Of a stretch of DNA of 64,000 nt, positions 307 to 53,505 are shown piece after piece. The DNA lies in the NCBI GenBank assembly GCA_002786025.1, contig NHNW01000006.1, positions 496,001 to 560,000 of the forward strand. The letters run 5' to 3'. Each line of letters starts with the position of its first letter. Position 1 is the stretch's first letter. This DNA comes from Zasmidium citrigriseum. Its lineage: Eukaryota > Ascomycota > Dothideomycetes > Mycosphaerellales > Mycosphaerellaceae. The translations under genes were made by a program, and so were the position numbers. The notes below the pieces were generated by a model that did not search any database, was not told the origin of the DNA, and was given only the letters and a program-made list of their open reading frames with translations.

Positions 307-1266
307 ATGTCCAAACCAGGAGACTACACCAGCGTCCGCTCAGACATCGCCGCCCTCCTCAAACAACCCGAATACGACGATGGCTCCGCCGGCCCCGTCC
401 TCGTCCGCCTAGCCTGGCACAGCGCAGGAACCTACGACGCCTCAACAGACACCGGCGGCAGCAACGGCGCCGGCATGCGCTACGAAGCCGAAGGCGGCGA
501 CCCCGCGAACGCAGGCCTCCAACACGCCCGCGTCTTCCTCGAGCCCATCAAAGCAAAGCACACCTGGATCACGTACTCCGACCTCTGGACTCTCGCAGGC
601 GTCGAAGCGATCAAACAGATGGGAGGCCCGGAGATCGAGTGGTTACCCGGCCGGACGGATTTCGTCGATGATAGTAAACTTCCCCCGCGAGGACGGTTGC
701 CTGATGGGGCGCTGGGAGGGGATCATTTGAGACATATTTTCTATCGAATGGGGTTTAATGATCAGGAGATTGTGGCTCTGTCTGGTGCGCATAATCTCGG
801 AAGATGTCATGCGGATCGATCGGGTTTCGATGGTGCTTGGGTGAATAACCCGACGAGGTTCTCGAATATGTATTTCAAACTCCTCCTCACGAGGCAGTGG
901 CGGGAGAAGCATCTCGATTCTGGTGTGCGGCAGTTTGCGTATTATGATGAGGATGCGGAGGAGGAGCTTATGATGCTGCCGACGGATATGGCGCTGATCA
1001 CGGATAAGGCTTTCAGGCCGTGGGTGGAGTTGTATGCGGAGGATAAGGAGAGGTTTTTTGAGGATTTCAGTAAGGTTTTTGCGAAGTTGGTGGAGTTGGG
1101 GATTCGGAGGGATGAGAAGGGTAAGGTGGTGAATACGGATAATATCAAGGGCGGATATCATAGTGCGCCGAAGAAGAGTGCAGTGCCTGGGAAGGAGGGC
1201 GAGGTGGATCGATTTGGAGAGGCTGAGCCCTTGAAGAAGGAGAATGAGATCAGAGCGAGGTTATAG
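307..1266 (+). CDS. Cytochrome c peroxidase-like heme peroxidase (class I), no mitochondrial presequence
   Basis: A single-exon protein of 319 aa. It should reduce hydrogen peroxide using a b-type heme. The distal-site motif [10 protein letters not shown] is at residues 32-41 (Arg34, Trp37, His38). The proximal motif [13 protein letters not shown] has His162, with Asp227 in LPTD as its partner. Trp178 aligns with the radical Trp191 of yeast cytochrome c peroxidase, so cytochrome c as electron donor is plausible. The protein begins almost directly at the catalytic domain. It lacks the N-terminal mitochondrial leader of canonical Ccp1, so it belongs to the shorter 'putative heme-binding peroxidase' group of fungi. 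The ATG follows an AAA-rich context and no intron is needed. It lies tail to tail with the P450, 225 bp apart. Family assignment is very secure; cytosolic location is inferred. Confidence 0.95.
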
Positions 1267-7215: not shown

Positions 7216-7985
<770 letters not shown>

Positions 7986-18935: not shown

Positions 18936-21434
18936 GGCGAATGTGAGTGAATTCGACTGGAACACTCTTTTGCAACGAACTCGAGTGACGCACCGCACGC
19001 GAACTTACCTGGAGGGGTCATTGGAAATATATGGCCCAGGCCGTCTCCTCTTTGGCCGTCACATTGGCCCGCAAATGTCACCTACCTGCTCTTTGCAACG
19101 GGAACTCGAAAAACACGAGCCGAAGCAACATGGACCCATCCAAATTGTCATCTGCCTTCCAGACTGGCGGACGTGTCGAACATTTTTCTTCGATCGCGGG
19201 GCAGCTAAGCACGCTATGGTGGTCACCTGCGTTGTACCTGTCGGCGAAGGCACAGTATGAGGAAAGAGGCGTCGAAGTAGCCTCTTGGCGACCGTATGAA
19301 TATGATGGAAAAGGACAAGCGATGAGCTTTGCGGTCCACGGAGTCCACCGGGTTGCGTGGGTACGTTGAAAGGACCAAGCTTAGCGCTCCCGGAGGCTAG
19401 GGCCGAAAAGCCCTCATTGACCAAAGGTGGTGTATTCGGTACCACAAGAACGCCATGCTGTGAGGCTATTCAGACGACAGATCTATTTCATCAGGTGGTA
19501 GGAACAGTACAAAGCGGCCAGAATGGTTCTTGTGGAGGCTCGTAGGAGTTGAAGATATCGCTAAAATCATCGAGTTGGTATCGACGATGCCATTGAATTG
19601 GCAAGGGGAACGCTGCAGTCTCGTGGCTCGCCTCCGCGATCGCATGTTCTCTCCAGTCTCCAGACTCCGCGCTCCACAGCAAAGTGGATCTTTGCAGCTG
19701 GGGCCGAACTTCCACCGATGGTATGGCTCGGTATCGGCACATTGCGTTCCTAGTGCAACGAAGACCTGTTCGGCCAGCGGCAATGGCGCGAACCACCATA
19801 TGCCGATGTTTTCAGCCGCTTCCAGAGTCGTGTTGAACGTACTGTGCAGCCAAGAAGTGTCTCCATTGAGTGGCGTACCTGATGGCCGTTCATTCGCGTG
19901 TGGTCCCGACAATGTGGCCGAATGTGCGGCGATGGCAAGATCTTTCACATGTGCGTACATGTGGCCAAAGAAGACTCGTTTATTAGGAGGTGATTGCGGG
20001 ACTGTTCATCCATCGGCAGTTGACACTGTGACTCGACTGTTCCGACAGAGCAGCGAAGCGATTCGGCATAGCATGCACCGGATCGAGCACCCGTGGTGAT
20101 CCACGCTATGGGCATGGCGCGAGCTACGAGCCTCGTGACGGGCCAGTCGATGCAGCCATTCAATGGCAGCGTGGTATGAAGACTGGTGTAAGCAGAACTT
20201 GATGGAGAGTAGAAGGTTGAAAGCCCACGGTGAGAGGAGGTGCGGTCAAAACGTTGCCCAGGGATTCGGCGCCGGTTCAAACTTTATCCGCGCGCGTGGC
20301 AGGTGCGACTCTCGCTCTGCAACTCTTTCTCAACATCACTCTGTTCCCTATCATCGCCAGCAACATCAACAAGTCCAACGATGACTCGTTCGTCCTCTTG
20401 CCCAGCTCAGGCGAAATTTTGAGCGCTCGGGAAGCAACAGCAAGACTTGAGCACCCCAAGAGCATGTTACACGTGGACACAGTCAGCGCGTCTTGTCTTG
20501 CCAGACATCGACCTCTCAACTTCTTGTTGCTTCAACAATCATCCTGCATCATTCGTATCGTTCGATGGCATCCATCTCCAGAAGACACTCTCTCAAGACT
20601 ACTGACGAGGTAGATGCGGCCAAGCAATCACAGTTCAGGACAACTTCGGAGGACACTGCGACTCGAACGTCTACCCTCGGTGTTCCGGTCAAAGTGGAAG
20701 ATGCCTCCAGTAATCTCCAACTTTCTCGACCAGAGCTAAGAGTTTAAAAAGCCCTCTAATAGCCTAGAGTCGCTTGTTCTTCCAGAGAGAGTTAATCTTC
20801 CAGTTTGAGCGGAAGAAGGAGGGTATGCTCCAAGATCCACCCGTGACCGATTACGATTCCGAGCCCGAATGGTTCTATCCTCTTGGACAATTCGGACGCT
20901 CTTGTGGCCCCGCCAAATTCTTATCAAGCAGCTGAGACGGCAGAGCTTCACCTCGGGTTCTTCGCGCTATCAACGCAGCTGACGTCCGCCTTCGTCAAAA
21001 TTGCGAGGGTTCAGACGCCTTAGTCAGACCTCGCGAGCTGGCGCATCGTGAGCTATGCTGAGGACAATCAGCCGCAGTGGTATCCCAGGAGGTAATACCC
21101 GAGCAGGCTATGTATGTCGCAAGGATTTCCAAGGCTACCCTACGAAGGTGCGAATCAGACAGGAGCACAGGAAGCTTGATGGCCCGCCAGCCAGTAAGTC
21201 GGACCACTGGAGGCGGCTGAACATGGCACTTTCGAAACACTTGGAGTTCAGCAGCTGCAAGATTCCGAGTACAGAAAGCTTGCCATTCGCGTCTTACGCA
21301 GGAGCATACTTCTAAAGGTGGCCAGTTCTCCTTCCTCATCAGCTTTCATTTTCTCAATCTCCTTGGTTGCCGAGCAGAACAATCTCAACTCTCTCACCTC
21401 ATCTAGATCACTGCACATTAACAACTTGATCAGC
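18936..21434. other. 2.5-kb region between divergent beta-glucosidase and acyltransferase
   Basis: Holds both upstream regions. Frames of 160-190 aa overlap on opposite strands at 19.5-20.1 kb without domains or ATG-supported starts, so they are not called. A possible small spliced gene at 20565-20935 is listed separately at low confidence. Confidence 0.4.
20565..20935 (+). CDS. Possible small spliced hypothetical protein
   Basis: A tentative two-exon model (20565..20741, 20804..20935) gives 102 aa. Exon 1 starts MASISRRHSLKTTDEV and splices in phase to FERKKEGMLQDPPV, followed by an acidic TDYDSEPEWFYPLGQ. The acceptor TCTTCCAG is good, but the donor (GTTTAA) is weak. The amino-acid composition looks protein-like, but I recognise no domain. 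It could equally be a degraded gene fragment or part of the acyltransferase upstream region. Confidence 0.28.
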
Positions 21435-22977
21435 ATGGACAAGACGGTCTACTTCGAAGGTGCTGAACCAAACATCGACCTGCAATACAGCGATGTCTGG
21501 CTACCAGGACTCTACTCTCGCCGTGTCATGTGCTTCGAATTACCAGAGGGCTCGACCCACGAGAAAGCGCTAGACGTCGTCGAACGAGGACTCAAAGCTC
21601 TGGTAGCTGGAACACCAGAGCTTGCAGCAGACGCAGTGGTGGTTCAGAACGCTGCTCCCCACGATCCAAAACAACCATGGCGAGCTTTGGTCAAAGGCAA
21701 AGGTCTCAAATTGGTTGTGAAAGACATGAGGAAGAGCTGTCAATCATACAAGCAACTGGAAGCTTCAGGATTTCCACTCTCATTCTTCAAGGATTCGACA
21801 TTCATGCCGATTGACGGAGCGATCCAGCCGGAACCTCAGCCAGAGTCCGTATACCAATTGAGCATGATCGAAGGCGGCGTGCTCATGAGCGTCTGTCTCT
21901 ACCACCGCCTGACCGACGGCAATGGAATGAACAGCATCACTCGTGCCCTGGGGGACGAATGCAAGAAAGCGGCAGGAACCAAAGGCGATCTCCCGCCTCG
22001 AAAGCTCGACATCGATCGATCCGTCATGGCCTCTCTCAACGGCGGAAAGACCGATCTGAATGATCATCCCGCACATTCGATTGTAGACCAAGTCTTCAAC
22101 CCTAATGTCAGCCACGAAGAAGCACCACCAGAAGCCAACGGCGAGCCCGCCCCTCCACCACCTCGTTTCGTCCCTGTCTACTACCGCCTGACCGATGAGA
22201 AAGCCGAAGCACTCAAAGACTATTGTAGTCGAGATATGCCTGTGTCCACACACGATGCCATATCCGCTCTGTACGCAGCCGAAAGCCCCCATATCCTCCT
22301 TCCAAATCCACTCACTAACCTCCCACTCTCAGCCTCTGGCGTAACCTAATCAAAGCTCGAATTGAAACCCATGAACTCAAACCCGACACCTTAAGCACCT
22401 TCACAGTCCCCCACAACGCCCGCAAACACATCGGCCTCCCAAAAGACTGGATCGGCAACTGCGTCTACTTCATCCAAGCCCAAGCCCTGCCCTCCGAAAT
22501 CGTCTCTCCAAACTATCTCGTAAGCACCCCTTCCCCTCCCTCACCTCCCAACTAACAAACCTCCCCATCTAGCCGACCCTCGCAGCAAAAATCCGCACAG
22601 CCCTCAACGTCGTCAATAACGAATACATGACCGGAATCTCAACAATCCGCCGCCGCGACCCCTACTCCCTGCACTGGTGGCCCATAACCTGTGCCAACAA
22701 CCCCGAAATCATCGCCATAACCTCCTTCTACCACTCCGAGCTCCTAGGCCACGACTTCGGACCCGCGTTGGGGAAAGTGAAACATTTCACGAGTACGGAT
22801 ATAGGCGCGTTTGGTAGTGTGTTTCAAAGAGCGCATTTTGCGGGTCCGAGGTTTGTTGGGGGGAGGGGGTGTGATGTGCATGTAGGGCTGTTGGAGGGTG
22901 AGGTTGAGGGGTTTGGGGGCGATGATGAATGGAGGAGGTATTTTACGCTTTTGGAGACGGGGGAGAAGGTTAACTGA
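21435..22977 (+). CDS. HxxxDG acyltransferase (trichothecene 3-O-acetyltransferase / BAHD-like)
   Basis: Three exons (21435..22270, 22333..22519, 22573..22977) give 475 aa. The catalytic motif HRLTDG is at 157-162. The C-terminal structural motif appears as DFGPALG, a variant of the DFGxGxP of this superfamily. These enzymes transfer an acyl group from acyl-CoA to a hydroxyl or amine, usually on small metabolites. Introns of 62 and 53 nt restore the conserved SALLWRN and SPNYLPTLAAKIR junctions. The start ATG at 21435 opens MDKTVYF; the frame extends upstream only with non-ATG codons. The gene stands alone without cluster partners, so the substrate is unknown. It converges on the epsin gene 300 bp away. 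Confidence 0.9.
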
Positions 22978-40395: not shown

Positions 40396-42332
40396 ATGAC
40401 AAAGACATGGGATGAGGTTCGCGAGGAGATCTGCAAGCTGTACGGCGAAGGCAGATCTCTGGAATACATCAGAAAGACTCTTCAGAGACAGCGACACTTT
40501 GAGGCCTCGTAAGCTGACTCGATTGCCTTGAAAGAGCTGGACTGACTGTGTCCAGAACCAGGGCTTTTCGTCTCAAACTCAAAGCCTGGAAGATCAAGCG
40601 TTCGGATATCGCGACTACGCCAGACCAGGATCGTCATTCGAGCGGCGAGCAATCAGCCATTTCCACTTCCGCGGGGCAGAACCCTTCTGCGAATACGTCG
40701 GCTCTGCCAGACCCGGAGCACTTGCTCTTTCATGACGGTGCCGTTTCGGTGTTGCAACTATCCAAAGCAAACAACCAACCTACCGGTCATTGTCATATGG
40801 GACGGCACCTTGGCGAATCTCTAGAAGACCTATATCTACGGATCAGGTACTGCGACTCCAAGACCTCTGCAGGTGACCTTGAGAAAATCCTGAGACCTGG
40901 TGACTTCGTTGAAGGTCGAACGAACATATTGCATTTCATAGCTAAGGAGCCGGCTTCCGAGCGCAATATCGAGCTGATCGATCGTCTCTTCGCATACATG
41001 CGGCTGCACTCCATTGATATGGACATTAGAGATCGCGAAGGACGGACAGCCCTTGGAATAGCTGCTCGGGCTGATTCTTTGTCGCTGGCTGAACGCTTCC
41101 TCTCCAATGGTGCATCGCCAAAGCAACGCGACGGCCGCGGATATTCACCGCTGCATCTGGCGCTAATTGCAGGAGCCTCGCCCTCTATGTTTCGTCTCCT
41201 TCTCAAGAACAGGGCGGACCCGAGCTCCTATCTACCAGCTCATGAACCATGCCGGACACCCCTATCCTGGATCGGCAAGGCCTTACGATCGATACGCAAG
41301 GTCGGACAAAGCGACCATGTCAAATGGTTCGAAATTGCAAGCTTGTTGCTAGAGTATGGCACTGGCTGGAGCTTACACGAGGCCAAGAACATACTCAGCT
41401 CATTCGTCTATTACTGGTCACTGTCATTAGGCTCAGACCAATTGTTCGACGTGGCCGAGCCATTGCTGAGAACCTATCTGGACGCGGAACACAGTCCTTT
41501 GGACATTGAGTGCCTCGAAGCGGACAACTCACCCCACTGCAACAACATTACTCTCGTACATGCGGCAGTGAATCACTCAAGGTCTCCATACTTGGCGCAC
41601 CTCATTGCGCGACTGTGTGCGAGACACCATCTAAGCTCGATAATACGCGAGGTTCTGAGGCCCAGCTCCTGCACACTATCGGAAGCTTCGTTAGCGGATA
41701 TGGGAATCGTCCTCAGCTCCGCTTTAAGATATAAGGAAGCCATCGACTCATATTCTGACACGCTCAACAAGATCGACCTCCTCATGCTGGCCCTTCAGCA
41801 CACTCCCGATCAATTTGTCGTCCAATACGCTCGAGCCATTGCCTCAGTAATGTACAATGGCGTTGCTGTTTGTGACCACACGACACGAAAACACCTCGTC
41901 CATTTACTCGTGCGCCGCAGTCCAGACGTTCGGTACGCCCTGGCTGAAATCATCCTAGAATGGAAAAGCTACATTTACGATATTAACGTTTCTCCACTGG
42001 TCACCTCCTCGGAAGATCCTCGATCCTTAGGCTTCCAACACATGATGAAACAAATCCACTACCTTCCTTCAAATCGCAACCTCGTCCAAGAAATTGAACT
42101 TAGGATCCGCATTCTATTACAAGCAGGTTCTTGCGAGGAGGAAGATTTGCTCCGCTTTATCGATTGTGTGCTGCACGTCAGGACCAAGGAGTCCGTCAAT
42201 GACATGTCTCCGACAACCGTCAACACGAAAGAATGGCTGATCGGGATCATTCGAATGCGACAGGCTCGTGGACTGCCGGACTTGCACATTCCTCAACAGC
42301 TTCTTTACAGTTGCTTTTGTCGCCAGGACTGA
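40396..42332 (+). CDS. Clr5-domain ankyrin-repeat protein
   Basis: Two exons (40396..40508, 40556..42332) give 629 aa. Residues about 1-55 form a Clr5 domain (TWDEVREEICKLYGEGRS, then FEASTRAFRLKLKAWKIKR), completed only by removing a 47-nt intron. Ankyrin-type repeats lie near 150-265 (DREGRTALGIAARADS, DGRGYSPLHLALIAGA). The rest is helical with no named domain. Clr5 was named from a fission-yeast silencing factor; in filamentous fungi the domain often heads ankyrin or TPR proteins of unknown role, probably DNA-binding or regulatory. It converges on a HET gene 339 bp away, a pairing typical of accessory regions. Confidence 0.87.
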
Positions 42333-42671: not shown

Positions 42672-44495
42672 CTAGATCGCCAAACGCCATGGATTATTTT
42701 CAAAATCGTCCACCACTTCGAGATCGAAGACCCATACTGTATACCTCCCCATCGTTGCGGCCATGTATTCGGGCCGCAGAAGACAGTGTAGATACCAGTA
42801 ACGCTCATCACAGCCCAGGTCCAGCTGAAAATAAGCATCCAGACCATTTTGTCTATCAACTTCTACATTCAACGTGTGGCGTTGGTGTTCGTAGTCAGGG
42901 CTGACTTCTCCCTTAGATCTGTCAAAGTACCAGTGTACTTGTCCAACCGAGACCTTGCAAACCGGATTGTAGTGATCATCGAAGTACACGCCGGCGCTTT
43001 TCCAGCCGCGTTTTAGCCACTCAGGAAGCCGACTACCAGAAGCAGATGATACGAGTCTTTCACACTGTCTCTCAAACAGAGTGATTTCGAGATAGGGCAC
43101 CTGCCCCGGTGTGAAGCTCAAAGTGCTCTGGCGTGCGTCCCACTCGGAATGATTAGGTTTCTTCCACCAGGGACTGGATTCTGGAAAGCCTGCTTTAAGT
43201 AGATTTGGACCAATATTGATGCCGTTGACGGGCCGTGAGGAATATATTCCTGTATTGATGTACCAAGGATAGGGACTCCGTTGAATGTAGACCAATGAGA
43301 CAGGAAGCCGTTTTGATAGAGTCTCTACGGGATGGTCAGTGGTGAAAGTAATGCGATTCGGAAGCAAGAATTTCTCACCAGGCTGAAGCTCATGAATGCC
43401 GTGATCATCGGAGGCGCTTGAGGTGATTCTGTTATACTTGCCCTTCTCATCTTTCCTTCTCAAGAACAGTGCCAATTGACATTGATTTCGCTGACAGTTG
43501 ATGGGAGCTGTGTAGGATTCCACGGTCCAGGGAATTAGTTCCAGTTGCATGGCAATGCCTCTATTGCTCACCTGGTATGGGTAGTTGTCGTTGAGGCCGA
43601 AATGACGTGTAATGTCGCCACTATCTTGGAATGCATCAGGTGAGCGGGCTAACAGCGAAGAGTTCCGTGGGTCTTTCAGCATCGACCACGCGAACAGCGA
43701 ATGGTCGTCTGAGGTCTTGATGATCTCTTCCTGCAGACGGATGAAGGCTTTTTCTCCTTCGCCGTAGAGCATGGGCATGTTCACGCCGAAGATGCCCAAT
43801 AAGGAGTATGCTCTGTCCTCTAGCCTCCTCGTCTTGCGTCCGGCTGCCCAAGACATACGTTGCGCGACGCCGCAGGTTTGCATTATCCAACCATCTCCCA
43901 GGACCTTTCGATCGATTCGAGTTGCATCTGAGATGGTGTTGCAGAGGTCTCTTCGTGATCCTAGAAAGTTCCAGTTCTTGTCGTAGAACAAGAGCTCAGG
44001 CGGTGCTAGCAATTCCTGCAGTGTCCATCCTCGCTTGAACCATCTGGAATTGATGAAATCTGTCCGGACCACCTGCATGTCTACAGCATCGGGCTGCTTT
44101 GGATTCAGATCCTTCAATGTCAAGCCATGTCCATCAACATCAGACAAATGCGTAAAGCAGATCTTCGCCTTCTCATAATAGCTATACATCGCATTGATCG
44201 CCTCACTCTTATCTGAGCTGCTGTTCTGATCGATACAAATCGTGTCTATCCAGGCGTACGATAACGGTGGCGTCCGGGCTTGCGCGAGCTTGCAGGTCTC
44301 ATGAATCTTGGTCGTCGATTGAAAGAGCTTGGCTTTGACGAAGTCACTCTCTATACCGCGGACATCTTGAAGTTCAATTTCCTTGTCTGGCTTCATGACC
44401 CAGGTGTGGGAGAGTATAGCGTATCCTGGCTCGGGCACATCGCTGGGGTCGTCGAACTTCTCGATAAGGTATGTGCTCGTGTTGATGAGACGCAT
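42672..44495 (-). CDS. HET-domain (heterokaryon incompatibility) protein
   Basis: Single exon, 607 aa. The three HET signature blocks are clear: YAILSHTW near residue 25; the YAWIDTICIDQNSSSDKSEA block near 80-100; and RWFKRGWTLQELLAP near 150. The downstream RRLEDRAYSLLGIFGVNMPMLYGEG segment is also characteristic. HET proteins trigger growth arrest or death when incompatible hyphae fuse, and many are plain HET proteins with unknown partners. The C-terminal 330 residues carry no recognised repeat or NACHT domain, so this is the short HET class. The ATG at 44495 directly precedes the conserved MRLINTSTYLIEKF start. Confidence 0.93.
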   Translation of the reverse strand: MRLINTSTYLIEKFDDPSDVPEPGYAILSHTWVMKPDKEIELQDVRGIESDFVKAKLFQSTTKIHETCKLAQARTPPLSYAWIDTICIDQNSSSDKSEAINAMYSYYEKAKICFTHLSDVDGHGLTLKDLNPKQPDAVDMQVVRTDFINSRWFKRGWTLQELLAPPELLFYDKNWNFLGSRRDLCNTISDATRIDRKVLGDGWIMQTCGVAQRMSWAAGRKTRRLEDRAYSLLGIFGVNMPMLYGEGEKAFIRLQEEIIKTSDDHSLFAWSMLKDPRNSSLLARSPDAFQDSGDITRHFGLNDNYPYQVSNRGIAMQLELIPWTVESYTAPINCQRNQCQLALFLRRKDEKGKYNRITSSASDDHGIHELQPGEKFLLPNRITFTTDHPVETLSKRLPVSLVYIQRSPYPWYINTGIYSSRPVNGINIGPNLLKAGFPESSPWWKKPNHSEWDARQSTLSFTPGQVPYLEITLFERQCERLVSSASGSRLPEWLKRGWKSAGVYFDDHYNPVCKVSVGQVHWYFDRSKGEVSPDYEHQRHTLNVEVDRQNGLDAYFQLDLGCDERYWYLHCLLRPEYMAATMGRYTVWVFDLEVVDDFENNPWRLAI

Positions 44496-46284: not shown

Positions 46285-46940
46285 GGTGTTTGGTTGACTT
46301 TCAGCGATGCGCCTCTGTACGTTGAGATATCGCAAAGACTCGTCAGTGGCTCAAAAGGATGAAGGTTAGTGGTTGATGTTGGAGCGGTCAAGAGAGGAAG
46401 AAGAGTTTGAATGGCTTCGAGTGATGGCAAAGTGAGAGCGAAGCCGCACGGACTTTCGCGACATGTGATCACATTTGCATCTGAAAACTTGCGTTCTGCA
46501 TGTGAGTAAAAGCAGTCTCACTTTCAAACCTCAAGCAGTCCTCAATGAGAAGGTCGACCACTTTTGGGGCAATGTGAGACCCTTTGCCTCCACGGCTCGG
46601 GAGCAGGCCAAATTCTCATCTCGTAGACCGTCATGGGACGAACGAGGAGCAATCATGCTGTCCATCTGAATCATCATCGCCGCCTAGGTGGATGCCGAGA
46701 TTCGAGGATCAATGTTAGTTGAATAGATGTGAGATACATGTTGTTGTAGCTCGACGCCTTCAGGTGAAGTGAAGTCAACACAAAATTCACGCTAGCCCCA
46801 ATTCGTGCTGCGGAACCGGCGCAAAGGTTTGGAGCCGATGCCGATGCAACTTACCGAGTGAATGGGCACGAGCACCAGCATCCTCGGTGGCACACCGCAT
46901 CCCATCCAAACCTCTGGCAACGAAAGTACATGTACAGATC
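46285..46940. promoter_or_regulatory. Divergent promoter region
   Basis: 656 bp between two divergent starts. No separate gene or distinctive element is visible. Confidence 0.4.
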
Positions 46941-48161
46941 ATGACTGAAGAAGAGCCATGTCCGCATCTCCTGAACCTACCTCCGGAGCTTCGCGAGGAG
47001 ATCTACCGCCTCATCCTCCATCCGAACGCAAACCGCCGATATCATGAAGACGAGTACACTTCGTACAACTTCAAGCCCGCTCTCGTCCTCTTCCAGATCA
47101 ATCGTCAGATCTACCACGAATCGCGCAAGATCTTCAGAGAGCTCAACACCTTCGTTCGCATCGAGACACCATGGGCCGAGACACAGCAGCACGTACAGAT
47201 GGAGGGACATGTGCCAGTGGTTGTGACGAAGGACAAAGCCTACAACTTCCAGCAGCATTCGATGAATGTTTTGATCGATGCACCGCTGCATATGTCGTTG
47301 GATATGGACATTCAGCGCTTCATCATACTGGTCGATGATCTTGAGAAGTTTACGAGAATGTGGCATTACGCGGATCTGACATACCCCACTCTAAATGAAC
47401 ATCTACGCCTCGAGCTACAACTGCGAGATCCATGGGCACCTGCATGGGAAGAGAAGCGAATGTCCAAGGCACTGCAGCGCAAGCTTCTGCTGCCTTTCGG
47501 GGAGGTCAAGAATGTCAATGAGACGGTGATCGGTGGGGATCTGAAGCCATACCAATCGATTGAGAAGGAGATGCGCGAGAACCAGGCCAAGCCACACCTA
47601 TCACCGGAGCACTGCTTGCGCGAGGCCACCAAGTACAAATTTGAAGGCAATGCTAGACTAAAAGAGGGAAAGTACCGCGAAGCGCTGGAACTGTACACCC
47701 AAGCATGGCATGCGATCCACGTCGTGATCAAAGGACGGAAGAGGCACATCCATGGAGATGCCTTCTTTGGCCGAGAATTGCGAGAAGAGCCCTTCATTGG
47801 CAAGAACGGTCAGGCAGAGCGCTTACTCCTGCGAGTTCAGCTCGTTGCCAACACCTGTCTGGCCTACCTCAAACTTGAGGAGTGGGATCAATGCCGCTTC
47901 TGGGGTCAGAGGAGTATCAACATGCTCAGAGAGGCCATGGGAGCTGACGAAAGGGTTGCCATCATACCTGAAGAGGAGGCTGTACTCGGCTTTCCAGCCG
48001 CGGATCAAATGGGAAAGATCTACTACCGCACTGCCGTCGCTTGCAAGATGCTGGACGATGAGAGTGAAGCACGAAAGCTGCTGAGGGTTGCCGCCGTCTA
48101 TCTTCCTCGGGACGAGAACATCAAGAAAGAGATCGCTGCCACGGCGTTGAGACTTGGATGA
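46941..48161 (+). CDS. 2EXR/F-box-like protein with TPR-like C-terminus
   Basis: Single exon, 406 aa, from ATG at 46941 (MTEEEPCP). The N-terminus holds LLNLPPELREEIYRLIL, the 2EXR/F-box-like signature of fungal proteins, followed by ALVLFQINRQIYHESRKIF. From about residue 215, helices with TPR character appear (ATKYKFEGNARLKEGKYREALELYTQAW, split here as two helices of one repeat; then RVQLVANTCLAYLKLEEWDQC, ending with MLDDESEARKLL). Such proteins may be substrate adaptors, but the role is unproven. The frame opens upstream only through non-ATG codons, so 46941 is the best start. Confidence 0.8.
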   Translation: MTEEEPCPHLLNLPPELREEIYRLILHPNANRRYHEDEYTSYNFKPALVLFQINRQIYHESRKIFRELNTFVRIETPWAETQQHVQMEGHVPVVVTKDKAYNFQQHSMNVLIDAPLHMSLDMDIQRFIILVDDLEKFTRMWHYADLTYPTLNEHLRLELQLRDPWAPAWEEKRMSKALQRKLLLPFGEVKNVNETVIGGDLKPYQSIEKEMRENQAKPHLSPEHCLREATKYKFEGNARLKEGKYREALELYTQAWHAIHVVIKGRKRHIHGDAFFGRELREEPFIGKNGQAERLLLRVQLVANTCLAYLKLEEWDQCRFWGQRSINMLREAMGADERVAIIPEEEAVLGFPAADQMGKIYYRTAVACKMLDDESEARKLLRVAAVYLPRDENIKKEIAATALRLG

Positions 48162-48538: not shown

Positions 48539-51517
48539 TCAAGATCCACAGGACACCTTCGCACTCCAAGCACTTCCCACCCAATCGCCCGGCGTCTGAG
48601 TACACCTCAACTCCGGGATGTAAAGGGGAAGAGAATTCTCGCAGTCGCAGCAACCTTGCTGAAGCCAGAAGTCGCATCCGTGCAACTGGGCAACAACTCG
48701 AACTTCTCTTGTCATCGGCCCCTGATCCGCGCACGCTTCAGTCCATCCTTCACCGAACGTGCCGCTGAAGATGGTGAGGGGGTCTGCGTCGCGAGTGCAT
48801 TCGATGCCGTATGTTACCCAGAATTCGACGTAGCGTGGGTCCGCGGAGTATTCAGACATAGAGGTGTCGCCGCGCTTGGAGATCGATGATGGATGCTCTC
48901 GACTGGACTTGCCTGCATCGCAAAACACCAGCAGACTCTGGCCAGTCGGCTCTCCAACGCCCAAGAACGGCTGCGTACATCCATTCCACCCAGCAAGAGG
49001 TCTCTGCTTTCCACCAGCCGCGCAGCTACCTCCCTGGATGAATGCATGACACCCGAGATAGACATGTGTGTACAACGACCGAACGGAGCCAGCGTCGAAG
49101 TCGTGACACTTAGTGAATGTCGGTGCTCCGTAATCGCCACCTACGAATTCCCAGACTGCCGAATGGTTTGAGTGGTCAACTGGACAGATCTCCAGTTCCG
49201 AGCCATAGACGACGAGAGCCCGCTTGTCGACTGGAATGGGTGGTGGTGGAGGCCATGTGCTGGCGGGACTCAGAGGATTGCCGGCAACACTGTCAGCAGC
49301 CCGGCGGGTCTTGGTCATGGATCTGTCTCGGGCGCTATCACCACAGAAGATGACAAAACTCTGCGAAGTCGGTTCACCGGGTTCCAAGAACGGCTCACCA
49401 CATCCCTCCCGCAACAAGAATCGCTTGTGAGCTGGGTTCACATCACAGATGCTGTCCTGAAAGTACATGACGCAGCCAGATGATTCAATGATGCCGAATG
49501 AACGCCACATCGAGGTGTCGAAGTTGACGCAGGCTTCGAGATCGTCGTCTCCGTATTTCCCGCCGTCGAAGTACTGGTGCTTGGCCTCGCTCTCTGCGCA
49601 ATCGTCCGAGGCGTACGACAGGTCAAGAAATCGGCGATCAGTCGAAGTTGGTGGGTCTTGTCTGGCGGAGACTTTGGTGGCCTTCTCTGCTAGCGCGATG
49701 GTCGTCGTTGGAACAATAGACCCCGACCCTGAATTCCGGCCCGAAGAGGCATCACCGCATTGCACCTGCAACGTCCATCCTGCCGGATTGTCAAGCGAGT
49801 AGCATTCTCCAGGATTGAGCAGAGCGGACGCTGGCAATGCCGGTGTGCAGAAATGGCCTGGTTGGAGAAACGCCTGACAATCGCCGACAGTCTCGATCAT
49901 GATGGAGAAGTCGCCATTGTATTCGTAACGCAAGCAGTCTCCGTCTCGAGCTTTGTCAATGTGGGCAGCAGTGCCATAGGCGATTGGGCAGGAGTAGGCC
50001 AGCGATGCCACAACCATCGGCTCCTCAGTCTTTGTGAGTTCAGGGTACGCCATTGCTCCCTGGACCGTGGCGGTCGCCTGGATGCTCTTGCTGCTCGTTG
50101 TTGATTCTTTTGGGCAATGGTTGTCTTCGGTGCTCTCATTGCAATGGACGACAAGGCTCTGCCATTCCGGAGATCCAGCTTCCAGGAATGCTGGGGTGCA
50201 GCGATTTTTGCATGCATGCACCTGTTTGCGAGCGGCGCCCTTCTCGCCGCAACGACCTTTCTGGATATAAGCGGTACAGCCCGCTACCTCCATGGTGAGG
50301 GCAGGCCAGGCGTCGGTGTTGAAGTTGACGCACTTCTTGACCTCGCGGTCTCCGTAATCACCGCCGTCGAATTGCTCGATATGGGTACTTCCGAATGCGC
50401 ACTCGTCTTTATTTGTCAAGTAGGCATGAACGTATCGGCCGGTTGGACTTGGTGGCGGCGTGAACGACCATGGTGTGGTGACGGTGCTGGAGGGTTTCTC
50501 ATCAATCGAGCTCGTTGGCCTCAGTGAAGTCGAGCCAGTGTCCTTCGTCGCTCGCTGCACAACAGGCTCGTCCCTCTCCACCCCCTCAACCGATCGCCCC
50601 TCGTCACAGCGCACGTTGAAGGCCCACCACCCATCGTCAATCTCCGGGAGCACAACCGCGGGGAGCACATGGCACCGGTCCATCTCAATCCGAGACTTTG
50701 GATCATGCATATCGCACAGCTCATCGTCCCAATAGTCCCCTTTGTTGAGGTACACTTTGCAGTTGGCGTCCGATTTGACCTGTGTATACAGCGGGCCGTA
50801 GTAGGTCGTGTTCAGGAGAAAGCATGCACTGCTGTAGGTGGCGTTCATGGTTTTGAAGTCGGTTGTGTTGATTTTGCACTCTGCGGATTTGTCGTGGATG
50901 GGCGAGTAGAGAAGGGTGATGTTGGGGTAATCTGGGGCCGCGGTGTTGGTTTGGGTGTAGATTGATGGGATGATTTTGGCTTCTTTGGAGTAGGATGCAA
51001 CGACGTCGTCCTTCGTTGCTCGCCGCCCAACAGGCACATCCCTCTCCACCTCCTCAACCGATGGCTCTTCCAAGCCGTCCTCCTTACAAAAGATCTTAAC
51101 AGCCCAAAGATGCCCGACCTTCGGAATCGTAAGACACTTGCCGATCTCCAACTCAGAGCCCAGATGCTTGTTGCCGCACTCGTCCATATCACCCTTGTTG
51201 AGGTAGACCTGGCAGTTGCTCTTCGACCCGAACAAAACGTGCTTGGCCGTCTCTCTGGTGTCGACGAGGAAACATGCCTCACGACCGAGGATCGCGAACT
51301 GGAAATCTGAGCTTTCGTTCAATTTGCAGGCTGCGGATGGGGAGGTGACGTTGTGGGAGAAGAAGGTGATGTTGGGTCTGGGTTTCGTGGCGTCCTCTTG
51401 CAGCTCAACGCTGCTGTGGGTGACGAAGTCTGCCTTCGATGTGTCTTTCTTGGTGGGTGAGGCTGCTGCAGTGATGAGCACTGCTGCCAGAGCCAGCAAG
51501 AAGGCGAGAGTCCGCAT
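48539..51517 (-). CDS. Secreted protein with seven six-cysteine modules
   Basis: Single exon, 992 aa, from ATG at 51517. Residues 1-19 are a signal peptide (MRTLAFLLALAAVLITAAA). Seven modules of about 90-105 residues each contain six ordered cysteines: C64-C144, C214-C304, C373-C459, C510-C587, C640-C725, C778-C866, C907-C990. Typical spacing is C-x(17-25)-C-x(17-20)-C-x(8-14)-C-x(13-16)-C-x(14-21)-C; modules 5 and 6 share 18-8-14-18 exactly. Aromatic/Gly landmarks recur (FDGGDYGD, YIQKGRC, FLEPGEP). Linkers are Ser/Thr/Pro-rich, with dibasic sites at GRR, DRR, TRR, DKR and SKR. I recognise no named family. Extracellular or wall-associated binding is plausible but unproven. The frame extends upstream only by non-ATG codons. 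Confidence 0.85.
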   Translation of the reverse strand: MRTLAFLLALAAVLITAAASPTKKDTSKADFVTHSSVELQEDATKPRPNITFFSHNVTSPSAACKLNESSDFQFAILGREACFLVDTRETAKHVLFGSKSNCQVYLNKGDMDECGNKHLGSELEIGKCLTIPKVGHLWAVKIFCKEDGLEEPSVEEVERDVPVGRRATKDDVVASYSKEAKIIPSIYTQTNTAAPDYPNITLLYSPIHDKSAECKINTTDFKTMNATYSSACFLLNTTYYGPLYTQVKSDANCKVYLNKGDYWDDELCDMHDPKSRIEMDRCHVLPAVVLPEIDDGWWAFNVRCDEGRSVEGVERDEPVVQRATKDTGSTSLRPTSSIDEKPSSTVTTPWSFTPPPSPTGRYVHAYLTNKDECAFGSTHIEQFDGGDYGDREVKKCVNFNTDAWPALTMEVAGCTAYIQKGRCGEKGAARKQVHACKNRCTPAFLEAGSPEWQSLVVHCNESTEDNHCPKESTTSSKSIQATATVQGAMAYPELTKTEEPMVVASLAYSCPIAYGTAAHIDKARDGDCLRYEYNGDFSIMIETVGDCQAFLQPGHFCTPALPASALLNPGECYSLDNPAGWTLQVQCGDASSGRNSGSGSIVPTTTIALAEKATKVSARQDPPTSTDRRFLDLSYASDDCAESEAKHQYFDGGKYGDDDLEACVNFDTSMWRSFGIIESSGCVMYFQDSICDVNPAHKRFLLREGCGEPFLEPGEPTSQSFVIFCGDSARDRSMTKTRRAADSVAGNPLSPASTWPPPPPIPVDKRALVVYGSELEICPVDHSNHSAVWEFVGGDYGAPTFTKCHDFDAGSVRSLYTHVYLGCHAFIQGGSCAAGGKQRPLAGWNGCTQPFLGVGEPTGQSLLVFCDAGKSSREHPSSISKRGDTSMSEYSADPRYVEFWVTYGIECTRDADPLTIFSGTFGEGWTEACADQGPMTREVRVVAQLHGCDFWLQQGCCDCENSLPLYIPELRCTQTPGDWVGSAWSAKVSCGS

Positions 51518-52032
51518 TTTGGGCTTGCTTGCGGATTGACCGCTGGAAGTGAGCCCGATGAAGCTGGAGGTTGCTACGGCTGTTATGGTCTGTTGCTGAT
51601 GGTGTGGTGTTTCCGCTTGTTGGTGTTGTTGTCTGAAGAAGTGATTAGCTGAACTTAAGTCATGAGAAAGTGTGTCGAAGAGGTGGATGTGTTGTGGATT
51701 TCGTTGATGTTGCAAAGGAGAGGTGATATGTGGGAAGCCAACGCACGGATCATTTCACATGAAGGCTTACTGCTGCTCTGGCTCACTTCACTTGGGTAGC
51801 ACTTAGGTCAACTCACCTTCGATTTGGCATGCTCTCATGAGAAAACACAGATTAATTTCAGCCTTCTCGATAGCATTCAATTATCTAGAGACTGAAGACA
51901 TCGCATTTGCACTTGGAATTCACTTCCCGTGCCGGTGAACACTCAAACTCGCATCGTACCCAGCAACTCCACCGAGCTATTGGAACAATCAAAGCCATCG
52001 CCTAGAGTCTCAAAGCATCATAGGTGGCTCCC
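51518..52032. promoter_or_regulatory. Upstream region of the seven-module gene
   Basis: 515 bp between the two co-oriented repeat-protein genes. It is open on the minus strand for 66 codons before the ATG but has no in-frame ATG, so it is likely 5' UTR and promoter. Confidence 0.45.
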
Positions 52033-53505
52033 TCAACCGTCGCATCTATACCACAACATAGTGCCCGTCCTCTGAGGGAGATCGATGTTCTTGCAAATTC
52101 CCGGGGTCTCCCAATGGTCGAAACCGATCGGGATATCGCAAACGCCGCTGACAAGAGTAGAGACGCAACCATCAATGGCTTTAAGATAGAAGGTGTTGCT
52201 CTCGTCTCTGACGGGCCAACAGCCTGTTAAGGCGGGAGTGCCAAATGCTCCTGCGTCGACTTCCCAACGGTTTCCCCACCCGTCGCAATCGGGTTCGTCT
52301 GTGAATTCGAAGAATGTGAAGAAGCGGTGACCAGGTACAATGCGTCCGGAAGCATCGGCGTCGATGGACACGTTTTGAGATGAGAAGCGTCTGGCTTCTG
52401 TTTGGGTGCTTCTGGGGGCTGGAGAGGCGTTGGTTGCATCAGAATTGATGCTCTTGGTTGGCACATCATTACCTTGGGAGTCTCGCTTGACATCGGTGAC
52501 GGCGTTCTCGGATGAGATGCTGAAGTCCACAGCTGGTTCCGGGATGGTGTAGTGATCGTTCGAAGTTGGAATGCTGGTCGGCAAAGTGCCTGCGTCTGAA
52601 GCGCGGGCTTTGATGCTGCTGCTCAGGGGAGCATCCTCGACTACAGAGCCGTTGCCAGACATTCGGTCGACGTCGCAGTGGCGGTAGAGCATTAATTCCG
52701 TCCCATAGTACTCTCTTATCCAGTCGAGATGCCAACAGTCCCCTTCCACAGTAGGGAATTTGTCATCATTTGCACAGGGTCCCCCCGTTGATAGGATTCC
52801 GAGATCACATCCCAACACTTCATCGATGTAGAGTGCATTGACATCGTTCGAGAGCGTGTAGCATGCTTCGATTTGTGGGCCGCCGAGCGCTGTGCGGGTT
52901 CCCGTGCTCTCCTGGCAGGCGATGTGCTCGTTGCCATCATGAAATTGATAGAAGACGACACCGGGAGTTGGTACGGCGCTGTCGCTAGAAATCGCTGGAT
53001 TCGCAGTGGCCATAGACACGTCGCGAGTCGGGGAATGACCGATGGCCTCAGAGCGCTCACACATTTCACCAAATCCTTCCTCATCACGAGCCTCAACACC
53101 CTCACACTTCCGATAAAGACTCAACCCCTCCCTCTCAAACTCCCCCAGCTGCACACAGTGCTGCACCTGAACCTCGAAATCCTCTGAACCAGGATACTCA
53201 TCCCCATCATTCGTGTGCACCACCCAAACCTTACATCCCACAGTCTCTGCGACGTACAGGGTGTTGTACTGCGGGTCGGTGAGGTCGAACCAGCCCTCGG
53301 ATTGAGGGTCGTCGAGAACCCATTTGTTGCCGTGGGTCGTGCCGTTGTTGAAGGTGCAGTCGGTGCTGGTGAATTGCCAGAGTTCGACGTAGAGGTAGGG
53401 GTCGGTGGTGAGGGATGGGTTTGGCGGGGAGCGGTTCTTGATGATGGAGCGGGCGGTGGCGAAGGTGGCCGCCGTTAGGAGGGTGATGGCTGAGAAGAGC
53501 CTCAT
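52033..53505 (-). CDS. Secreted protein with three six-cysteine modules
   Basis: Single exon, 490 aa. Residues 1-18 form a signal peptide (MRLFSAITLLTAATFATA). Three modules share the cysteine plan of the downstream gene: module A at about 35-135 (C50, C91, C117, C134, lacking cysteines 2 and 4), module B at about 183-277 (C197, C215, C233, C244, C257, C277), and module C at about 394-488 (C407, C429, C447, C456, C471, C488). Linkers are Ser/Thr/Asp-rich and include DVKR and EARR basic sites. It lies 515 bp upstream of the seven-module gene on the same strand, suggesting local duplication and module gain or loss. No known family is recognised. The product should be secreted and disulfide-stabilised. 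Confidence 0.85.
   Translation of the reverse strand: MRLFSAITLLTAATFATARSIIKNRSPPNPSLTTDPYLYVELWQFTSTDCTFNNGTTHGNKWVLDDPQSEGWFDLTDPQYNTLYVAETVGCKVWVVHTNDGDEYPGSEDFEVQVQHCVQLGEFEREGLSLYRKCEGVEARDEEGFGEMCERSEAIGHSPTRDVSMATANPAISSDSAVPTPGVVFYQFHDGNEHIACQESTGTRTALGGPQIEACYTLSNDVNALYIDEVLGCDLGILSTGGPCANDDKFPTVEGDCWHLDWIREYYGTELMLYRHCDVDRMSGNGSVVEDAPLSSSIKARASDAGTLPTSIPTSNDHYTIPEPAVDFSISSENAVTDVKRDSQGNDVPTKSINSDATNASPAPRSTQTEARRFSSQNVSIDADASGRIVPGHRFFTFFEFTDEPDCDGWGNRWEVDAGAFGTPALTGCWPVRDESNTFYLKAIDGCVSTLVSGVCDIPIGFDHWETPGICKNIDLPQRTGTMLWYRCDG

Follow-up and report, generated by a model that had tools for sequence, protein, structure and literature searches.

A neighbouring pair of secreted-type genes in Zasmidium citrigriseum built from ten copies of a cysteine-rich, possibly crystallin-like module

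We analysed a window of 64,000 nucleotides from the ascomycete Zasmidium citrigriseum (GCA_002786025.1, contig NHNW01000006.1, here C105:496001-560000), which belongs to a genome of 44.4 Mb in 148 contigs. This window holds two neighbouring genes, A and B, whose predicted secreted products are built from ten copies of a module of about 100 residues (aa) with six cysteines. In window positions, the genes are:

48539..51517, minus strand, gene A: 992 aa, seven modules; ATG at 51517 (preceded by AAA), stop codon at 48539-48541
52033..53505, minus strand, gene B: 490 aa, three modules; ATG at 53505 (preceded by AAC)

An earlier note made from the letters of this window had described two co-oriented intronless genes, each with a signal peptide. 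Both genes are indeed intronless and lie on the minus strand (the strand had been left unstated), they contain no in-frame stops, and the codon use of their own frames falls within the range of neighbouring genes. Judged by eye, each protein begins with a signal-like stretch, whereas hydropathy speaks clearly for A only: its best 19-residue value is 2.07 at the N-terminus versus 1.19 elsewhere, while the corresponding values for B (1.41 versus 1.35) say little. The last cysteine sits two residues before the C-terminus in both proteins, no C-terminal hydrophobic (glycosylphosphatidylinositol, GPI-type) tail was found in either, and the intact chains would measure ~106 kDa (A) and ~52 kDa (B) before glycosylation. 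The modules, with the spacing between their cysteines where measured, are:

51074..51385, minus strand, module A1: 17-19-11-13-15; three N-glycosylation sequons
50594..50932, minus strand, module A2: 17-20-14-13-21; four sequons
50126..50443, minus strand, module A3: 22-17-8-16-18; GGDYG
49742..50023, minus strand, module A4: 17-18-9-14-14; matches the other modules most weakly
49322..49639, minus strand, module A5: 22-18-8-14-18; GGKYG, FLEPGEP; first structure model
48902..49228, minus strand, module A6: 25-18-8-14-18; GGDYG
48542..48847, minus strand, module A7: 21-18-7-15-17; two extra cysteines, CCDC
53095..53400, minus strand, module B1: C2 and C4 both missing
52666..52965, minus strand, module B2: 17-17-10-12-19
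52036..52329, minus strand, module B3: 21-17-8-14-16; second structure model

The claim that all ten modules carry the same six cysteines holds for nine of them but not for B1, which keeps four (C2 is replaced by tryptophan and C4 is absent), giving 58 of 60 canonical cysteines overall. Since B1 is without both at once, this one case hints at a C2-C4 bond. Extra cysteines occur in A3 (one) and A7 (two). The nine measured spacings fit the typical 20-18-8-14-17 described before, and modules 5 and 6 of protein A do have 18-8-14-18 in common between cysteines 2 and 6. The sequence landmarks GGDYG and FLEPGEP recur more loosely than had been proposed: GGDYG is found in A3 and A6 with GGKYG in A5, and FLEPGEP is exact in A5 alone, with FLEAGSP in A3 and FLGVGEP in A6, such that these three modules have an FLxxGxP loop in common. 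The net charge of the modules ranges from +1 to -13 and is negative in nine of the ten. The acidity of nearly all modules weighs somewhat against a membrane-attacking role of the kind played by basic antifungal proteins.

By their sequences, the modules are homologous beyond their cysteine spacing, because leave-one-out profiles beat all shuffles and because a profile of the gene-A modules recognises those of gene B. All ten modules scored above each of 500 free and 500 cysteine-fixed shuffles, with a small margin for A4 (13.2 versus 12.8 for the best shuffle), and for B1, B2 and B3 only 0, 1 and 2 of 1000 free shuffles (0, 2 and 6 of 1000 cysteine-fixed ones) scored as high against the gene-A profile. 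Profile-profile comparison of gene A with gene B gave P 1.6e-5 (prob 79, 62 columns), or, under a forced end-to-end alignment, P 6.8e-5 (prob 35). In the reverse direction, no shuffle out of 1000 reached A6 or A7 with the gene-B profile, while the numbers as high (free, cysteine-fixed) were 6 and 10 for A5, 15 and 33 for A3, 40 and 56 for A2, 45 and 50 for A4, and 169 and 248 for A1, which is thus not separated.

The amplification itself appears to be old, because the modules group by gene on long branches and have low third-position identity. Identity between modules is 13-41% in the pairs measured (~59-87% of positions differ), and pairwise BLAST resolves the groups A1/A2, A3/A5/A6 and B1/B2/B3, leaving A4 and A7 alone. 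In a tree of all ten, the modules of each gene stand together (support 82/88; found in 80% of bootstrap trees), but the program flagged the very long branches as unsafe. Third-position identity is 0.26-0.47 in eight module pairs, which makes a recent whole-module duplication unlikely, although A1/A2 and A3/A5 have more identical codons than expected (24/38 versus 16.6, and 23/34 versus 15.3). Together with the profile tests between the genes, these data uphold the earlier proposal that A and B have a module in common, which was amplified inside each gene as well as from one neighbour to the other.

The author of the earlier note knew of no named family with this cysteine pattern, and Pfam, NCBIfam and PDB searches agree with this, none of them having returned a significant match to a described domain. 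At E <= 10, both proteins and all ten modules drew only weak Pfam matches, the best for the whole proteins being SpaA_4 with gene A (E 0.28, under the curated cut-off), and the modules matched four families weakly, one module each. NCBIfam was searched with A and B, and PDB sequences with gene A of the two proteins (best E 0.63, leiomodin) and with the module profile, for which none of ten matches at E <= 10 (best 0.12, adenylyl cyclase-associated protein) is a crystallin. In a set of 5.8 billion proteins, which need not include fungal proteomes, none of 6305 candidates for gene A or 7882 for gene B reached E <= 1, and none of 93 candidates for the module alignment reached E <= 10. PHROGs searched with the modules gave nothing at E <= 0.1. 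No paper on secreted fungal proteins that carry crystallin-like modules in tandem was recognisable from titles and abstract starts among the matches listed from the open-licence literature without preprints.

Queried with both whole proteins and seven modules (A1, A5, A6, A7, B1, B2 and B3, but not A2, A3 or A4), the genome itself yielded only A, B and weak extras; the best candidates alone were scored, so that distant copies may be missed. Among these extras, C62:624530 (E 0.012) is short, has an internal stop and lies opposite a longer frame, and was tentatively judged a chance match; C105:662614, matched by module A1 (E 0.042), falls in the catalytic region of a subtilase whose gene is ~115 kb away from A and B, and looks like chance; C2:18023 (E 0.29) belongs to a frame of 710 aa whose translation resembles a transcription factor; and no cysteine-module gene was seen at C116:313134 (E 1.48). 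A profile scan of 214.5 kb in 22 loci, comprising the 100 kb to either side of the window, a 9.5-kb stretch around C105:662614 (with an overlap of 2 kb) and 5 kb around the kexin gene described below, revealed no further copy (best E 0.63) and two cysteine-pattern matches that look like chance frames. Pfam killer-toxin or crystallin matches were not found in the genome.

The linkers between the modules are rich in serine, threonine and proline (15.8, 10.3 and 10.1%) and low in C, L, F, Y and W. Dibasic KR/RR sites are in excess between the cysteine cores relative to inside them: seven of the eight sites in A and B lie between cores and one inside A5, and five of the eight inter-module linkers (A1-A2, A4-A5, A5-A6, A6-A7 and B2-B3) carry at least one (shuffles with cysteine-core bounds: P 0.016 for the number of sites in linkers, 0.042 for linkers covered). 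The genome also encodes a kexin-type proprotein convertase (subtilase plus P domain) on C61 (L016 1586-4210). The broader Kex2 motif aliphatic-x-x-R (PMC8528282) occurs 11 times in 449 linker residues and 12 times in 994 module residues, and settles little because it is present in both. The inter-core dibasic sites and a repeated linker tract are located as follows:

51020..51025, minus strand, dibasic RR, linker A1-A2
49631..49636, minus strand, dibasic RR, immediately before module A5
49301..49306, minus strand, dibasic RR, linker A5-A6
49220..49225, minus strand, dibasic KR, immediately before module A6
48872..48877, minus strand, dibasic KR, linker A6-A7
52483..52488, minus strand, dibasic KR, linker B2-B3
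52387..52392, minus strand, dibasic RR, linker B2-B3
51008..51070, minus strand, tract after A1, contains PVGRR|ATK
50540..50602, minus strand, tract after A2, contains PVVQR|ATK

The two tracts are 63 nucleotides long, are 86% identical at the DNA level and span a putative cutting site in each copy. Codons for the same residue are identical in 12 of 14 cases (5.0 expected, P 9.4e-5, for a stretch picked after the repeat was seen), and third positions are identical at 0.86 compared to 0.47 between modules A1 and A2. The edges are sharp: on ungapped extension, 2-5 of every 10 bases are identical in the 30 nucleotides to the left and 1-5 of 10 to the right. No such repeat was found in other linker pairs, and the tract is known from this one pair. 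Disordered linkers would be expected to drift no more slowly than folded domains, so that the tract may either be younger than its neighbours, by conversion or by a module exchange ending in the linker, or be held by selection.

Structure models of two of the ten modules, A5 and B3, reached predicted local distance difference test (pLDDT) scores of 77 and 81, and the order of the main strands is alike in both, so that unrelated folds for different modules, named beforehand as grounds for giving up the shared module, did not appear; both models were built from the same ten rows. In VIA-align, crystallins rank first for A5, where they make up 48 of the best 50 rows, and for B3, and fungal members of the fold are listed as well, APP with both models and WmKT with B3. 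With no more than moderate confidence, the models suggest that the module is a beta-gamma-crystallin-like double Greek key.

We tentatively propose, at something short of an even chance, that A and B encode secreted precursors of crystallin-like cysteine-rich mini-proteins that are cut, at least in part, by kexin. The products would be soluble strings of small beta domains, presumably stabilised by disulfides, on S/T/P-rich, glycosylation-prone linkers; Kex2 would probably cut at least some of these linkers in the Golgi (A1-A2, A4-A5, A5-A6, A6-A7 and B2-B3), and the cell would export mini-proteins that differ widely from one another, are acidic for the most part and could each have an extracellular target of their own, perhaps in an effector- or competition-type role. 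Cutting at every dibasic site would yield A1, A6, A7 and B3 singly, split A5, and leave A2-A4 and B1-B2 joined. A further-reaching version, which we regard as unlikely, is a modular effector polyprotein that gives rise to at most ten kexin-freed crystallin-like mini-proteins and whose linkers double as cutting sites and as DNA homology for swapping or copying modules; it would explain why the tract is conserved beyond its flanking domains, third codon positions included.

Several observations weigh against the proposal of kexin-cut crystallin-like precursors. Every VIA-align Z is below 5, under the background stated for that tool, and in the list for B3 polyhedrin is tied with the crystallins; Foldseek E never reaches 0.001 with A5 or B3, and no crystallin is among the best 50 of 67 Foldseek matches of B3. 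Sequence similarity to gamma-D-crystallin is not significant (its score was reached by 21 and 59 of 500 shuffles; hhalign prob < 1), Pfam Crystall (PF00030) is absent at E <= 10 from both proteins and the ten modules, and no profile match to the WmKT family (PF09207) was found in proteins, modules or genome. The motif [ND][ND]xx[ST]S, with which microbial beta-gamma-crystallins bind calcium, occurs in none of the ten modules, and the signal for an internal two-motif repeat is weak (reached by 57 and 10 of 300 shuffles; hhalign P 0.013). With respect to cutting, no dibasic site is present in three of the eight linkers (A2-A3, A3-A4 and B1-B2), one KR lies within A5, and with linker bounds taken from the modelled domains, which put two of the seven inter-core sites on a domain edge, the dibasic excess is not significant (five in linkers versus three in modules, P 0.086 and 0.13).

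The fold call could be mistaken, a substantial possibility that is compatible with the other alternatives: the module may be another small disulfide-rich beta-sandwich, perhaps undescribed, that is crystallin-like merely as two-sheet proteins are, against which stand the crystallins heading both VIA-align lists and the fungal members within them. We also consider it possible, if rather unlikely, that the modules stay joined and function together as beads on a string. The intact chain would then be a multivalent binder, either secreted or attached to the wall (an adhesin-like, matrix or wall protein), and its glycosylated linkers would act as spacers. S/T-rich spacers are found in multi-domain secreted fungal proteins such as the Candida glabrata Awp adhesins (PMC8746771), and the S/T/P-rich linkers, the three that lack a dibasic site and the aliphatic-x-x-R sites inside modules are in keeping with this. 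However, most dibasic sites are located outside the cysteine cores, and in either chain two residues follow the last cysteine, with no GPI-type tail found. Moreover, many adhesin repeats are kept alike, unlike the modules of A and B, which differ at most positions. Improbable in our view is a multi-domain secreted inhibitor in which each module blocks a hydrolase and several per chain widen the target range. Multi-domain protease inhibitors typically consist of cysteine-rich domains that stand in tandem, have diverged and are separated by basic residues, a layout that A and B resemble, and SMPI is a metalloproteinase inhibitor with a beta-gamma-crystallin-like fold; yet Pfam and NCBIfam gave no inhibitor family match, no reactive-site loop can be named, and the FLxxGxP loop is kept in A3, A5 and A6 instead of being varied. 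Small secreted proteins of tomato pathogens that can block a plant protease (PMC10533508) speak for inhibition.

The closest published setting for A and B is a double Greek key beta-gamma-crystallin/WmKT-like group among the orphan candidate effectors of many filamentous ascomycetes (PMC10462633); a gamma-crystallin/killer-toxin-like candidate is also described in Parastagonospora nodorum (PMC8146201). Like A and B, with their best Pfam match under the cut-off, these orphan candidate effectors are secreted-type and lack a Pfam domain, and they are predicted to adopt the double Greek key that is tentatively proposed for the modules. They are, however, single domains with a mature length below 300 aa, the selection in PMC10462633 having left out proteins above 300 aa, whereas A and B are 992 and 490 aa long with seven and three modules, each of a size within that limit; the comparison is one of features. 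Kex2-processed repeat proteins (KEPs; PMC6339444) likewise have a signal-like N-terminus, repeats and dibasic sites between several repeats, but their repeats are identical or nearly so and give small peptides, whereas the units of A and B are diverged domains with dibasic sites in five of eight linkers and not in every one. The FOLD effectors of Fusarium oxysporum (PMC10942635) are also cysteine-rich and secreted, with two domains per chain and a pro-domain processed by Kex2, but their two domains are distinct, while A and B repeat one module. Lens and microbial beta-gamma-crystallins (PF00030), including Neurospora APP, resemble the modules in the VIA-align lists but not in significant sequence similarity or calcium motif, nor do they share the six cysteines per module and the secreted-type tandem array; the yeast killer toxin WmKT (PDB 1wkt) differs in its profile, in the mostly negative charge of the modules and in their number per chain. 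The likely fold class is a known one, and what sets A and B apart is that the domains are arrayed in tandem in one chain instead of one domain per gene. If fold and cutting are as proposed, effector surveys restricted to small secreted proteins would miss long many-domain precursors of the same fold, and the pair would be a place to watch domain birth and swapping within one gene. The anatomy alone defines sharply a secreted-type family with a testable module and no known relative in the searches made here.

The window does not form an AT-rich island, as G+C is 0.51-0.57 across sixteen 4-kb steps. On the 3' side of gene A, and convergent with it, lies a frame (46887-48161, plus strand) with a weak tetratricopeptide repeat (TPR) match under the Pfam cut-off. 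About 4 kb off the gene pair is a HET-domain (heterokaryon incompatibility) gene (42672-44495, minus strand; Pfam E 2.6e-15), and an ankyrin-repeat protein of 594 aa is encoded at 40548-42332 (plus strand). Farther away, an acyltransferase frame (21318-22349, plus strand) has an N-terminal domain like that of trichothecene 3-O-acetyltransferase, a cytochrome P450 gene (1596-3101, minus strand) adjoins a cytochrome c/ascorbate-type peroxidase gene (307-1266, plus strand), and a single frame of head-to-tail ubiquitin units, which we take to be polyubiquitin, occupies 7317-7985 (plus strand).
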